Part shown: positions 37,876-43,302 of the stretch, one piece after another
Layout of the letters: each line of letters begins with the position of its first letter
How positions within the stretch are numbered: the stretch's first letter is position 1
Assembly: GCA_900197605.1 (NCBI GenBank)
Contig: FZLQ01000002.1
Coordinates: forward strand, 1 to 46,332
DNA length: 46,332 bases
From: Phyllobacteriaceae bacterium Water-Bin73
Lineage (GTDB): Bacteria; Pseudomonadota; Alphaproteobacteria; RS24
Direction: 5' to 3'
Position numbers and translations under genes: made by a program
The notes under the pieces: generated by a model
Databases searched by the model: none
Seen by the model: only the letters and a program-made list of their open reading frames with translations
What the model was told of the DNA's origin: nothing

Positions 37876-39318
37876 GTGGCAGAACAGGGAAAATTGGTTG
37901 AGCGCAAATTATTTGCCGGCGCGCGGGTGCGCCGTTTGCGGCGCGAGCAACGCCTCACCCAAGCCGCGATGGCCGAGGCGCTGGGTATCTCGACCAGCTA
38001 TCTCAATCTGATTGAGCGTGACCAACGTCCGGTCTCGGCGCAAATCCTTTTGCAATTGGTTGAGGTGTTTGACATCGACCCGCGCGGCCTGGCCGGTGAC
38101 GAAGAAGCGCGCGCGCAAACGCAACTTCATGAAGTGTTTTCCGATCCGATGTTTCGCGACACGGCGCTGTCGCGGGCTGAATTAAAAGACCTGGCCGCCG
38201 CCAGTCCGGCTGCGGCTGATGCGGTGGCGCGGCTCTATCAATCGCTGCTGCAAAGCCGCGCCTCCAATGCGCTATTGGCCGAGCAATTGGCCGGTGGCGA
38301 TGCGGTGGATAGCGGCGGCAATGCGCTGGCGCTCGATGAAGTGCGCGATTTTATTTCAGCGCAGAATAATTATTTCGCCGCCCTCGATGAAGAAGCCGAA
38401 GCCGTGCATGAAGAAGCCGTGGCCGGAAATGATGAGCCTTATCTGGCGTTGCGGGCGCGGCTGGAAGAGCGCCATAAGGTCAAAACCCGCATCGCCCCGA
38501 TTGAGGTGATGGAAAACACGCTGCGCCGTTATGACCGCCATCGCCAAACGATTTTCCTGTCGGAATTGCTCGACCAGCCGGGCCGCTCGTTTCAACTGGC
38601 TTATCAGCTTGCCTATTTTGAGCAAATGCCCGCCATTGAAGATATTATTGTCGCCTCGGGCATGGAGAGCGAGGAGACGCGCATTGTGGCGCGCATCTCT
38701 CTGGCCAATTATTTCGCCGCCGCCGTGCTGATGCCCTATTCGGCCTTTTTGAAAACGGCGGAGGTCAATCAATATGACATCACGCTGTTGGGCCGCCGCT
38801 TCGGCACCAGTTTTGAGCAAGTGTGCCATCGCCTGACGACGCTGCAACGGCCGGGCGCGCGCGGTATTCCGTTCTTCCTCATTCGCGTTGATAATGCGGG
38901 CAATATTTCCAAACGTTTTTCAGCCGGCGGGTTTCATTTTGCGCGCTTTGGCGGCACTTGCCCGCGCTGGCATGTGCATGATGCGTTTCGTATCCCCGGC
39001 AAAATCTCGACCCAGACCGTGCAGATGGAGGACGGCACGCGTTATTTCTCCATCGCCCGCACAGTAAGCCGCGATAATTCGGGTTTTGGCGTGCCCGATA
39101 ATCAGTTCGCCATTGCGATGGGCTGCGAGATTAAACACGCCGAAAAACTGGTTTATGCGCGCGGCATGAATCTTGAAAATGATGAAGGCGACACGCCGAT
39201 TGGCGTGAATTGCCGCTTATGCGAACGCCGCGATTGCAATCAACGCGCCACGCCCTCCGTCAATCGCGCATTGCGCCTTGATGAGCATGTGCGCGGCCTT
39301 TCCCCCTTTGATTTTTAG
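37876..39318 (+). CDS. XRE-family regulator of short-chain fatty acid / glyoxylate metabolism (ScfR/RamB type)
   Basis: 480 residues from a GTG start at 37876 with AAGGAA 9 bases upstream. An N-terminal Cro/XRE helix-turn-helix (about 14-70: ARVRRLRREQRLTQAAMAEALGISTSYLNLIERDQRPVS) is followed by an IrrE/DUF955-type and DUF2083-like region. The usual HExxH is missing; the aligned segment reads QLAYQLAYFE, so no protease activity is expected. A conserved C-terminal CRLCERRDCNQRA may bind metal. Members next to aceA control glyoxylate-shunt and propionate/acetate genes (RamB, ScfR). The divergent placement supports control of aceA and of itself. Confidence 0.85.
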   Translation: MAEQGKLVERKLFAGARVRRLRREQRLTQAAMAEALGISTSYLNLIERDQRPVSAQILLQLVEVFDIDPRGLAGDEEARAQTQLHEVFSDPMFRDTALSRAELKDLAAASPAAADAVARLYQSLLQSRASNALLAEQLAGGDAVDSGGNALALDEVRDFISAQNNYFAALDEEAEAVHEEAVAGNDEPYLALRARLEERHKVKTRIAPIEVMENTLRRYDRHRQTIFLSELLDQPGRSFQLAYQLAYFEQMPAIEDIIVASGMESEETRIVARISLANYFAAAVLMPYSAFLKTAEVNQYDITLLGRRFGTSFEQVCHRLTTLQRPGARGIPFFLIRVDNAGNISKRFSAGGFHFARFGGTCPRWHVHDAFRIPGKISTQTVQMEDGTRYFSIARTVSRDNSGFGVPDNQFAIAMGCEIKHAEKLVYARGMNLENDEGDTPIGVNCRLCERRDCNQRATPSVNRALRLDEHVRGLSPFDF

Positions 39319-39358
39319 GCGAGATGCGATAGGAAATCCCCTTAGACAGGTGAACAAA

Positions 39359-40876
39359 ATGACCGAGATGAGTGACCAACCCTCCAAGCGCAAAGCCAAG
39401 AAGCAGAAAAAGTTCAAGCCGAAAGCGCGCACGCCGCGTGGGCTTAGAGATATGGCGGGTGATGAGCTGCACCTGCAAAACCATATGCTGGACACCATCT
39501 CGCGAGTTTATGAGGCTTACGGCTTTGAGGCTTTGGACACATCGGCGTTTGAATATGCCGATGCGCTGGGCAAGTTTTTGCCCGATGATGACCGCCCGAA
39601 TGAGGGCGTGTTCGCGCTGGAAGATGATGACGGGCAATGGATGAGCTTGCGCTATGACCTGACCGCGCCGCTGGCGCGCCATGTCGCGGAGCATTTCGAC
39701 CGTTTGCCCAAGCCCTTGCGGCGTTATCAATTCGGGCCGGTTTGGCGCAATGAAAAACCGGGGCCTGGGCGTTATCGCCAGTTTATGCAAATCGACGCCG
39801 ATACGGTCGGTGCAGGCAATCAGGCGGCTGACGCTGAAATTTGCATGATGGCGGCAGACTGCATGGAAGCTTTGGGGATTGAACGCGGCGATTATGTCGT
39901 GCGTATCAATAATCGCAAAATTATGGACGGACTGCTGGAAGCCATTGGCCTCGACCCCCAGGGGGAAGAGTTTGAAAGCCGTCGTCTGACCATTTTGCGC
40001 GCCATGGATAAATATGACCGGCTCGGTCTCGATGGCGTGACGGCGCTTTTGGGCGATGGTCGCAAAGATGAGAGCGGCGACTTCACCAAAGGGGCCAGTC
40101 TCGATGCGGGTCAAATCGACAAGGTCGCGCAAATGGTTTCCATAGGTGCAGATGATCGCACAAGCGCGCTTGAAAGCATGGCCGAATTGGTTAAGCAAAC
40201 CGAAAGCGGCAAGCAAGGGCTCGATGAATTGGTCGAGATGGCGGCGCTGTTCACCAAGCTTGGCTATGACGCAGACCGGCTGGCCATTGACCCAAGCGTG
40301 GTGCGCGGGCTGGGCTATTACACCGGCCCGGTTTATGAGATTGAACTGACTTTCGAAACCCAAGACGAAAACGGCGAATTGGCGCGCTTCGGCTCGGTTG
40401 GCGGCGGCGGGCGTTATGATGACCTCGTCAAACGCTTTAAGGGCATTGAAATTCCGGCCACCGGCATTTCCATCGGTGTGTCGCGTCTGGCCGCCGCGCT
40501 TATGCTGTTGGGCAAGGGCGCCGCCGCAGCCCCCGCGCCGCTGGTCGTGGTCGCGGTCATGGACAAAGGCACCCGCCCCGATTTAATGGCACTGGTCAGC
40601 GAGTTGCGCGCTGCCGGTATTCGCGCAGAAATGTATATGGGCGACAGCGCGATGAAAGCGCAGTTACGTTATGCCGATGCGCGCGGCGCAAGGCTGGTGG
40701 TGATCGAAGGCGAAGACGAGCGCGCCAAAGGCGAAGTGACGCTAAAGGATTTACAGCTCGGCGCAGAAAAATCGGCAGAAATCGAAGATAATGCCGAATG
40801 GCGCGCCTCTGAACACGCGCAAAAGCAAGTGACGCGCGCCGATTTAGTAGCTGAAATTCAGAAGATTATTTCATAA
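39359..40876 (+). CDS. hisS: Histidine-tRNA ligase
   Basis: 505 residues from ATG 39359, with AGGTGA about 8 bases upstream (ATG 39368 also possible). The class II synthetase motifs are present: RYDLTAPLARHVAEH, RRYQFGPVWRNEKPGPGRYRQFMQIDADTVG (motif 2) and the histidine-specific RGLGYYTGPVYEIEL, then GGGGRYDDLVKRF (motif 3 region). The C-terminal anticodon-binding domain follows. The N-terminus carries an unusual lysine-rich stretch (KRKAKKQKKFKPKA). It charges tRNA-His. It lies upstream of hisZ, a HisS paralogue; the order hisS-hisZ-hisG is frequent in alphaproteobacteria. Confidence 0.97.
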   Translation: MTEMSDQPSKRKAKKQKKFKPKARTPRGLRDMAGDELHLQNHMLDTISRVYEAYGFEALDTSAFEYADALGKFLPDDDRPNEGVFALEDDDGQWMSLRYDLTAPLARHVAEHFDRLPKPLRRYQFGPVWRNEKPGPGRYRQFMQIDADTVGAGNQAADAEICMMAADCMEALGIERGDYVVRINNRKIMDGLLEAIGLDPQGEEFESRRLTILRAMDKYDRLGLDGVTALLGDGRKDESGDFTKGASLDAGQIDKVAQMVSIGADDRTSALESMAELVKQTESGKQGLDELVEMAALFTKLGYDADRLAIDPSVVRGLGYYTGPVYEIELTFETQDENGELARFGSVGGGGRYDDLVKRFKGIEIPATGISIGVSRLAAALMLLGKGAAAAPAPLVVVAVMDKGTRPDLMALVSELRAAGIRAEMYMGDSAMKAQLRYADARGARLVVIEGEDERAKGEVTLKDLQLGAEKSAEIEDNAEWRASEHAQKQVTRADLVAEIQKIIS

Positions 40877-40915
40877 TTTGTGAAATAATTCGTATTTTTA
40901 AGTATATTTTATATA

Positions 40916-40960
40916 ATTGAATTACATTTTTATTAAATATTAGGTTATTGAATTCATTTT
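40916..40960 (+). repeat. Spaced AT-rich repeats before hisZ, candidate operator
   Basis: ATTGAATTACATTTT (40916-40930) and ATTGAATTCATTTT (40947-40960) lie 31 bases apart, about three helical turns. They are followed at once by the predicted promoter, whose ATTGACTTTGAATCACTTT again echoes the motif. Candidate binding sites for the helix-turn-helix domain of the adjacent HisZ fusion. Confidence 0.45.
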
Positions 40961-40962
40961 CA

Positions 40963-40991
40963 TTGACTTTGAATCACTTTCCACCTAGAAA
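40963..40991 (+). promoter_or_regulatory. Predicted hisZ promoter, leaderless layout
   Basis: TTGACT (40963-40968), a 17-base spacer and TAGAAA (40986-40991), with the hisZ ATG only 5 bases later at 40997. There is no clear ribosome binding site, so transcript and coding sequence probably start together. Confidence 0.5.
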
Positions 40992-40996
40992 GCAGT

Positions 40997-42349
40997 ATGG
41001 AAGAACGTCCTCAAGCCGCTCAAGCCTCTCAGGCACAAGTGGCCCCCAGCCGCTTATCCTCTGCCAGCGAGGTGATTGACGCGCTGGGCGGCACAAATAG
41101 CGTCGCGGAAATGCTGGATATTGGCGCCTCTTCGGTTTCAAATTACCGCAAACAGGGTTTTCCCGCCCGCAGCCATTTCATTTTAGCCAAAATATGCGCT
41201 GAGCGCGGCCTCGATGTCGCTGATGCGGTCTTTGGCGGCTATCAGCTGCAAGCGCGCCCCAAGGCCTATCAACGCGCCGCCACCAGCTCGGCTTTGGCTT
41301 CTGCGGCCGCCTCACCGGCTTTGATACAGCTAGAGCAAGCCGGGTTTAAGCGCGTGTCTCTGCCGATTTTGCAACCGGCCGCGCCGTTTATCGACCGCAT
41401 GGGGCCGGAAATGCAGCGTCGCCTCTTTACTTTTACCGATCCGGGCGGCGAGCAACTTTGCCTGCGCCCGGACCTGACCATTCCCACCGCTTTGGCGCAT
41501 ATCGCCTCCGGACAAAGCGGCGAGGCGCGTTATTGCTATCAAGGCACGGCTTTTCGCTATCAGCCGCGCGGCTCTGGCCAGCCGGAAGAATTCACCCAGC
41601 TTGGCATGGAAATTATCGGCGGCGGAAACGGGCTTGATGATGATTTGGCAGTCCTCGAAACCATTATTAATACGCTGCGGCAGGCCGGGCTGAACCGCAA
41701 TCTGCGTTTTGTTTGCGCCGATTTCGACATGATGACGCATTTTCTGACCGCATTGGATATGAGTTCACAAGCGCGCGAAATTGTCTGGCGGCTGATAAAT
41801 CGCGCCCAAGATGCCGATGATTTCAAAAAGCTGGCAAGCCTCCAAACCGGCGATAAAAATGCCGCCGCCGAGGCCGCCAAGCGGGTTGATGCCAATGCCA
41901 TGATTGCCGGTCGCTCGGGCAACGAAATTCTGGCGCGCCTGTCGCGGCTTGATGGCGCGGCGCTTGATGCGGACAGCCTTGATGCGGTTCATAAATTTCT
42001 CGCCTATCTCCCTGCCCCCAATGGATTTGCAGAAATATCGACCGCCTTTCCGCAGATGAAATCTTGGTTTGAGACGCGCACCGCGCAGCTTGGCAGCGTT
42101 ATTTTACCGGCAATGGCCGGCGCGGCAGAGATGAGCGATATTAGCTTTGCGCCGATTATTGCGCGCGGTATGGCCTATTATACCGGCCTATCTTTCGAGA
42201 TTTACGCGCAAGGCATAGACCGACCGATTGCCGCCGGTGGCCGCTATGATGATTTGCTGCAAAGCCTCGGCGCGCCCCAACCGCTTTCTGCCATTGGCGG
42301 CGCAATTGCGTTGGAACGCTTGAACAATGCGGTGGAGATGCAATCATGA
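40997..42349 (+). CDS. hisZ: ATP phosphoribosyltransferase regulatory subunit fused to an N-terminal HTH domain
   Basis: 450 residues. Residues about 105-450 form a HisZ: a HisS-like domain with PILQPAAPFIDRMG, RRLFTFTDPGGEQLCLRPDLTIP, FRYQPRGSGQPEEFTQLGMEIIGG and ARGMAYYTGLSFEIYA followed by GGRYDDLL. HisZ activates the short form of HisG and senses histidine. Residues about 22-80 (SASEVIDALGGTNSVAEMLDIGASSVSNYRKQGFPARSHFILAKICAERGLDV region, in two parts) look like a small YdaS/Cro-type helix-turn-helix, normally a separate protein. An Ala/Gln-rich linker joins them in one uninterrupted frame, with no internal ATG before the HisZ part. Its end overlaps hisG by 4 bases. Confidence 0.88.
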   Translation: MEERPQAAQASQAQVAPSRLSSASEVIDALGGTNSVAEMLDIGASSVSNYRKQGFPARSHFILAKICAERGLDVADAVFGGYQLQARPKAYQRAATSSALASAAASPALIQLEQAGFKRVSLPILQPAAPFIDRMGPEMQRRLFTFTDPGGEQLCLRPDLTIPTALAHIASGQSGEARYCYQGTAFRYQPRGSGQPEEFTQLGMEIIGGGNGLDDDLAVLETIINTLRQAGLNRNLRFVCADFDMMTHFLTALDMSSQAREIVWRLINRAQDADDFKKLASLQTGDKNAAAEAAKRVDANAMIAGRSGNEILARLSRLDGAALDADSLDAVHKFLAYLPAPNGFAEISTAFPQMKSWFETRTAQLGSVILPAMAGAAEMSDISFAPIIARGMAYYTGLSFEIYAQGIDRPIAAGGRYDDLLQSLGAPQPLSAIGGAIALERLNNAVEMQS

Positions 42350-43302
42350 GCAAGCTTATTCTCGCCATTCCGTCAAAAGGCCGCCTCGAAGAAGCGGCGG
42401 CTGAGATTTTCGCCAAAGCCGGATTGACCTTAAAACGCGATGGCGCGCGCGGTTATACCGGCAGCCTGCCCGACCTTGATGAGGTGCTGGTTGAATATGT
42501 GTCCGCCGGCGATATTGCGGCGCGGCTGGCCGAAGGCTCTGTGCATATGGGCATTACCGGCGAGGATTTATTGCGCGAAGAAATTCCCGATATGGAAAGC
42601 GCGGTTCAGCTTTGCCTGCCGTTGGGCTTCGGCCAAGCCGATGTGATTGTCGCCATTCCCGATGGCTGGGTCGATGTCACCACCATGTTTGATCTGGCCG
42701 ATGTGGCTGCTGAATATCGCGCCCGCCACGGTCGCCTGATGCGGGTGGCATCGAAATATGAGCATCTGACCTATGATTATTTTATCCGCCACGGCGTTGA
42801 ATTTCAGTGGCTGCCAAGTTTCGGCGCGACCGAAGCCGCCCCCAATTCCGGCGCAGCGGAGGCGATTGTCGATATCACCTCAACCGGCGCAACACTGAAG
42901 GCCAATAATTTGCGGGTGCTCGAAGACGGGGTGATTTTGAAAAGCCAAGCCAATCTCGCCGCCGCCCTCAAAGCCGATTGGTCGGCTGAAGTGCGCCGCG
43001 TTGCCAAGCGCATACTGGCGCAAATCTCGGCCATGCAAGCGGGCGAGAAGATGATGGAATTGAAATTCACCGCCCCCGCCCCGCCGGATCAGATGGTCGA
43101 TGTCTCTGACGCGCTGATGCAGTCATCTGTGCCAAGTGGTGGCGATTATGCCTGCTCGATGATTATTGAGCGCAGTCGCTTTTCGACTTTGCGCGATGCG
43201 CTGGGTCAACGCGGCATTGCGGTGATTGCCGACACGCCGAAATTTATTTTCGGGCCGGATAATAACCGCGCTTTTGAAAGGCTCACCGGCGCGTTAAGCT
43301 AA
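42346..43302 (+). CDS. hisG: ATP phosphoribosyltransferase catalytic subunit
   Basis: 318 residues; catalyses the first step of histidine synthesis. The N-terminal SKLILAIPSKGRLEEAA, YVSAGDIAARLAEGSVHMGITGEDLL and the PRPP-binding loop EAIVDITSTGATLKANNLRVLEDG are diagnostic. It is about 90 residues longer than the short HisG that pairs with HisZ. Residues about 235-318 could form an ACT-like domain, as in long HisG (compare MELKFTAPAPPDQMVDVSDAL and YACSMIIERSRFSTLRDALGQRGIAVIA). It overlaps hisZ by 4 bases (ATGA), so translational coupling and one complex are likely. Confidence 0.95.
   Translation: MSKLILAIPSKGRLEEAAAEIFAKAGLTLKRDGARGYTGSLPDLDEVLVEYVSAGDIAARLAEGSVHMGITGEDLLREEIPDMESAVQLCLPLGFGQADVIVAIPDGWVDVTTMFDLADVAAEYRARHGRLMRVASKYEHLTYDYFIRHGVEFQWLPSFGATEAAPNSGAAEAIVDITSTGATLKANNLRVLEDGVILKSQANLAAALKADWSAEVRRVAKRILAQISAMQAGEKMMELKFTAPAPPDQMVDVSDALMQSSVPSGGDYACSMIIERSRFSTLRDALGQRGIAVIADTPKFIFGPDNNRAFERLTGALS

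Follow-up and report, generated by a model that had tools for sequence, protein, structure and literature searches.

The window analysed here is the 46,332 nt stretch from position 1 to 46,332 of contig FZLQ01000002.1. An uninterrupted open reading frame at 40997–42349 on the forward strand predicts a 450 aa protein made up of a helix-turn-helix (HTH) domain, a linker and HisZ. The frame lies between hisS and hisG, and the 120 bp gap that separates it from hisS (40877–40996) has a GC content of 21%, compared with 55% for the window. The features of this region are listed below in order of position.

39278..40876, forward strand: hisS, histidyl-tRNA synthetase, the upstream neighbour (TIGR00442, E 5.1e-115)
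40870..40884, no strand assigned: operator-like palindrome O1, TTCATAATTTGTGAA, of the form TTCA-N7-TGAA, overlapping the hisS stop codon
40959..40973, no strand assigned: operator-like palindrome O2, TTCATTGACTTTGAA, of the form TTCA-N7-TGAA, enclosing the -35 box
40963..40968, forward strand: -35 box TTGACT of the predicted hisZ promoter (layout conserved in 10 genomes)
40986..40991, forward strand: -10 box TAGAAA, 5 bases before the ATG (conserved layout)
41066..41218, forward strand: HTH domain, YdaS/Cro-like (carph-isopro), residues 24–74 (profile matches, AlphaFold2, Foldseek)
41243..41305, forward strand: linker, variable and disordered, residues 83–103 (20% mean pairwise identity; pLDDT <50)
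41282..42334, forward strand: HisZ domain, residues 96–446 (NF008953, E 3.9e-61; PF13393, E 2.6e-43)
42346..43302, forward strand: hisG, overlapping the hisZ stop codon (ATGA) (TIGR00070, E 1.4e-48; PF01634)

Upstream of these genes, the segment 36060–39318 carries an isocitrate lyase family gene (reverse strand) divergent from a RamB/ScfR-type regulator gene (forward strand), likely a regulator-target pair.

The HisZ part of the predicted protein matches PF13393 over residues 111–442 and the alphaproteobacterial HisZ model NF008953 over residues 96–445. It is identified as HisZ by a score of 207 bits with NF008953 versus 134 bits with the hisS model TIGR00442, the HisZ-model scores themselves being below the strict equivalog cut-offs. 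The genetic setting is that of a HisZ, with a separate, full hisS that includes the anticodon domain and, alongside, a hisG of the short form, in the product of which PF01634 was the single Pfam match and the HisG_C regulatory domain was not found. Residues T161, R187, Q201, E205, Y394 and Y395, which align with the histidine pocket of HisRS, are invariant in the alignment of the fused HisZ family.

When residues 1–100 were used as the query, residues 24–74 matched the NCBIfam model NF046037 (carph-isopro) with an E-value of 7.6e-6, and weaker matches were obtained with YdaS_toxin (E 0.0011) and P22_Cro (E 0.0047). The scores are below the curated cut-offs (26 of 38 bits for NF046037 and 19.2 of 30 for YdaS_toxin), and the domain is therefore described as similar to YdaS, Cro and carph-isopro and not as a filed member of these families. 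AlphaFold2 required a family alignment, reaching a pLDDT of 38 from the single sequence; with an alignment of 21 family members it predicted helices at residues 23–29, 33–40, 44–53 and 57–69 (pLDDT about 63–87), followed by disorder in the linker around residues 80–103. Foldseek comparison with viral models gave local matches to YdaS/Cro-type folds at probabilities up to 1.00 and weak E-values of 0.02–0.4, in agreement with an HTH bundle of four to five helices. A PDB fold search with the whole model, which is uninformative on the HTH, gave only HisZ and HisRS structures among the matches listed, and when the HTH sequence by itself was compared with the PDB, no match was significant (best hit 3bd1, Cro, E 1.2). 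The first-pass annotation had proposed an HTH-like domain at about residues 22–80 joined by a linker to a complete HisZ (about 105–450), and this arrangement is borne out, with the N-terminus predicted to adopt a YdaS/Cro-type fold. Mean pairwise identity across the window's family is 71% for the HTH, 49% for HisZ and 20% for the linker, which indicates that the HTH is the stretch under the strongest constraint.

The window's family, the only one found in its order, is the PS1 clade, and its named relatives, among them Alpha proteobacterium IMCC14465, belong to this clade. A hisZ match was detected in 24 of 28 genomes of this family, covering 6 genera, and every match that extends to the N-terminus carries the HTH. 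Two further families with an HTH-HisZ were found. One (f49), with 15 full-length members, came from searching 289 genomes of the class with the HTH profile, and the other (f121), in which the HTH is divergent, from a carph-isopro search of 385 genomes, where it was present in 4. Unfused hisZ genes of Hyphomicrobiales have no such head, the frame beginning near the HisZ core. An assembly, frameshift or sequencing artefact joining two genes, a concern raised with the original proposal, is ruled out, because the same domain order is kept in independent genomes across the whole PS1-clade family and in the two additional families. In-frame stops flagged in some of the matches were taken as end-of-gene effects, as open frames span the whole protein. 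Three PS1-clade sequences (L008, L020 and L022) have largely lost the middle of HisZ (about residues 240–380) and retain the HTH and the core motifs.

The HisZ cores of the PS1 clade and f49 are 28–29% identical and their HTHs 48–56% identical. In the best tree the HisZ of these two families group together, but support is not strong (92/68); a tree that unites all three fused families is not rejected (p-AU 0.29). A single origin of the PS1-clade and f49 fusions is thus neither proven nor rejected by the trees.

The AT-rich gap had been suggested as a natural target for the HTH on account of its repeats. These are present in the form of O1 and O2, and several sequence comparisons support the suggestion. 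TTCA-N7-TGAA occurs in 38 copies in 23 of the 26 gaps upstream of fused hisZ, where dinucleotide shuffles gave a mean of 0.34 and a maximum of 3, the counts being drawn from relatives that share ancestry and so not representing independent events. Only the spacing of 7 is strongly enriched: the other spacings from 0 to 12 have at most 2 copies each, and a few of 13–18 reach 3–7 copies, apparently from combination of neighbouring half-sites. The commonest 5-base inverted repeat, identified with no prior choice of sequence, is TTCAT-N5-ATGAA, found in 15 of 23 PS1-clade regions and in all 15 f49 regions; as a maximum statistic, shuffles reached no more than 4 and mirror repeats 6–7. Each of the 15 f49 genomes has two copies 39 bp apart, and identity within the family is 98% at one site and 89% at the other, compared with 67% for the 24 bp spacer and 53% for the upstream flank. 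The positions of the palindromes vary between genera, and three PS1-clade genomes (L010–L012) have only sites with one mismatch. GTCCTG/CAGGAC half-sites are found upstream of the f121 hisZ (L243, L244 and L309–L312), but the palindrome statistics for this third HisZ family, and likewise for the ArgB genes described below (4 genomes each), are too weak to stand alone.

The hisZ promoter has the layout TTGACW-N17-TANNNN-(5/6)-ATG in 10 of 10 genomes of the genus examined. A generic promoter scan missed it because the -10 box lacks the final T, and it was conservation that revealed it. As the -10 box ends 5–6 bases before the ATG in these 10 genomes, the hisZ mRNA is probably leaderless. In the window O2 encloses the -35 box, and in f49 one of the two sites ends about 6–8 bases before the ATG.

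The palindrome does not appear to be a general property of hisZ or his promoters. In 58 regions upstream of unfused hisZ, TTCA-N7-TGAA was not the leading palindrome, and the commonest one, which is different, occurs in 6 of 58. In 16 hisS promoters from the same clade the commonest palindrome occurs only once, and no TTCA-N7-TGAA was found in about 100 kb around the hisBHAFE operon in 18 genomes, on which basis a his-wide regulon is rejected. Across the genome TTCAY-N5-RTGAA has ten copies, two of them outside long open reading frames, and the hisZ site is one of these two. This scarcity outside open reading frames, together with the absence from hisBHAFE, suggests that the only target is the gene's own promoter.

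The same type of HTH was found at the N-terminus of other enzymes in Alphaproteobacteria, with the identity of the partner confirmed by Pfam for examples and read from translations for the rest. In f26 a CarA match is present in 58 of 60 genomes and most of these begin in an HTH (L275–L304, L313–L332); some that seemed unfused at first proved fused on closer alignment. Fused carA is preceded by the palindrome TGGGAA-N5-TTCCCA. Its core, GGGAA-N5-TTCCC, is present in 44 of the 48 regions upstream (no shuffle exceeded 3) and is often repeated at a distance of 38–39 bp. Before the sole unfused carA whose upstream sequence is long enough (L321), GGGAA-N5-TTCCC is absent. In f109 the HTH is carried family-wide by CoaBC (Dfp), with a match in 38 of 41 genomes (L349–L378), and TTCAC-N6-GTGAA occurs in 12 of 28 upstream regions (shuffle maximum 2). 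The TTCAC/GTGAA half-sites upstream of these coaBC genes are arranged as inverted and apparently also as direct repeats.

A distinct palindrome accompanies every kind of HTH-enzyme that was examined in depth. The HTHs of CoaBC and HisZ have an SNY stretch in the recognition helix in common, and their half-sites are TTCAC and TTCAT, respectively, whereas CarA differs from HisZ in both the recognition helix (RKW) and the half-site. That helix and half-site vary together supports recognition of the palindrome by the HTH.

Further enzymes headed by an HTH are ArgB in f59 and f118 (L246–L248, L251, L252), PyrB (L042), the NAD(P)HX epimerase/dehydratase NnrDE (L151, L233, L259), SerA (L227), a pyruvate-dehydrogenase-type E1 (L249), GlmU (L255) and prephenate dehydratase PheA (L262), and on these the HTH is of the Cro/YdaS or HTH_3 type. 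Suggestive palindromes precede pyrB, one nnrDE and argB, and none was evident upstream of the genes for SerA, PheA and crotonyl-CoA reductase. L043, L045 and L155 encode a crotonyl-CoA reductase-like dehydrogenase headed by a P22_Cro/YdaS-like HTH, and TorD-like chaperones, identified from sequence, have an N-terminal YdaS-like domain in L250, L253, L254, L257, L263 and L269. Most carph-isopro members with high scores are COG4223/mitofilin-like membrane proteins, in which DNA binding is not evident.

In other bacteria HisZ forms the tetrameric core of a HisZ-HisG hetero-octamer, binds histidine, activates HisG and mediates its inhibition by histidine, and short-form HisG depends on HisZ (PMC10795190). 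The fused protein is probably bifunctional, activating HisG and conveying histidine inhibition as well as repressing hisZ-hisG at TTCA-N7-TGAA, with the repression most likely favoured by histidine. As HisZ, it would join and activate HisG and relay inhibition by histidine. The HTHs of paired subunits in the same HisZ assembly would bind the palindromes in the hisS-hisZ gap and, in doing so, cover the -35 box and repress transcription of both genes; with O2 placed over that box, autorepression of hisZG is the simplest reading. The flexible linker may allow a HisZ tetramer to reach two palindromes simultaneously with its four heads. Histidine held in the conserved HisRS-like pocket would most likely favour the repressing state, and feedback at the level of the enzyme and at that of transcription would then come from a single protein.

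A tentative and rather unlikely alternative retains the protein and its sites but replaces the signal, such that HisZ free of HisG represses, or that the PRPP/ATP state is read. HisZ works only in complex with HisG, the gene of which overlaps hisZ, trigger enzymes often switch on the state of a partner or substrate (PMC8249747), and BirA, which represses once its partner is saturated, is a precedent. However, histidine is the established ligand of HisZ (PMC10795190), and the residues of the histidine pocket do not vary. Repression itself is questioned by an alternative of low probability, in which HTH-HisZ occupies its sites but acts as an activator of hisZG, or serves only to limit fluctuations in its own expression and senses no metabolite. 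The location of O1, upstream of the promoter, would suit activation, and ligand-free autorepression is common, but the placement of O2 around the -35 box and of the f49 site shortly before the ATG is typical of repression.

It is also improbable, to a slightly greater degree, that a different transcription factor reads the palindromes and the HTH of HisZ has another role. In its favour, carph-isopro domains are found on membrane proteins too; against this, the palindrome goes with the fusion in two families that are only distantly related and differ in gap length, is missing from the unfused hisZ, hisS and hisBHAFE promoters, and has counterparts before other HTH-enzymes, where similar recognition helices go with similar half-sites. 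The sub-threshold profile scores would suit an HTH that is a relic, or an appendage for folding or oligomerisation with no part in DNA binding, but this is very improbable for a domain that is better conserved than the rest of the protein and is retained throughout two families. Autorepression by HTH-HisZ, most likely with histidine as the signal, is thus the preferred reading.

Proteins that combine an enzymatic with a regulatory role are already known as trigger enzymes. Those of E. coli named in PMC8249747, which cites Commichau and Stulke 2008, are BirA, NadR, PepA, PutA and PyrH, and such metabolic proteins double as DNA-binding regulators, often of their own gene. HTH-HisZ resembles these in having a predicted DNA-binding domain on a metabolic protein and candidate operators, conserved palindromes that overlap its own promoter; it differs in that the YdaS/Cro-like N-terminal head is attached to a histidine-sensing subunit that is not catalytic. 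With the short-form HisZ-HisG systems (PDB 1z7m, 5m8h and 8oy0) it shares the HisZ fold, the hisZ-hisG pairing, a HisG without the C-terminal regulatory domain and the histidine pocket, but known HisZ has no DNA-binding domain. The head shares the small four-helix Cro-type HTH of carph-isopro (NF046037), YdaS_toxin and P22_Cro, but scores below the cut-offs of those families. In Gram-positive bacteria his genes are likewise controlled at the DNA level by HisR, which is, however, a dedicated transcription factor and not fused to an enzyme subunit (PMC9413887). The open-access literature searched, which leaves most subscription papers outside, contained no description of a HisZ trigger enzyme, of a YdaS/Cro-like head in this role or of its recurrence with matching operators. 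HTH-HisZ is a real fusion, and its proposed autoregulation is well supported by the comparisons made here.

The presence of the same HTH on CarA, CoaBC, ArgB, PyrB and others makes this look like a recurrent kind of trigger enzyme. It seems somewhat more plausible than the contrary that Alphaproteobacteria have repeatedly turned biosynthetic enzymes at committed or feedback-controlled steps into self-contained feedback repressors by means of one small N-terminal YdaS/Cro-like HTH, each with a palindromic operator in its own promoter. This would have occurred up to three times in HisZ and also in CarA, CoaBC, ArgB, PyrB and NnrDE, and perhaps in SerA, PdhA, GlmU and PheA, providing a modular one-protein substitute for attenuators and dedicated repressors.

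If the reading of HTH-HisZ is correct, a histidine sensor in streamlined marine bacteria would act on one pathway at two levels, enzyme and gene, from a single polypeptide. If the wider pattern holds, a small DNA-binding head would make the existing allosteric site of a feedback-regulated enzyme a transcriptional sensor as well, which would suggest a simple design for self-regulating enzymes and allow many operators that lack annotation to be predicted (TTCAT-N5-ATGAA and TGGGAA-N5-TTCCCA among them). It would also help to account for the control of biosynthesis in small genomes that have few dedicated regulators.
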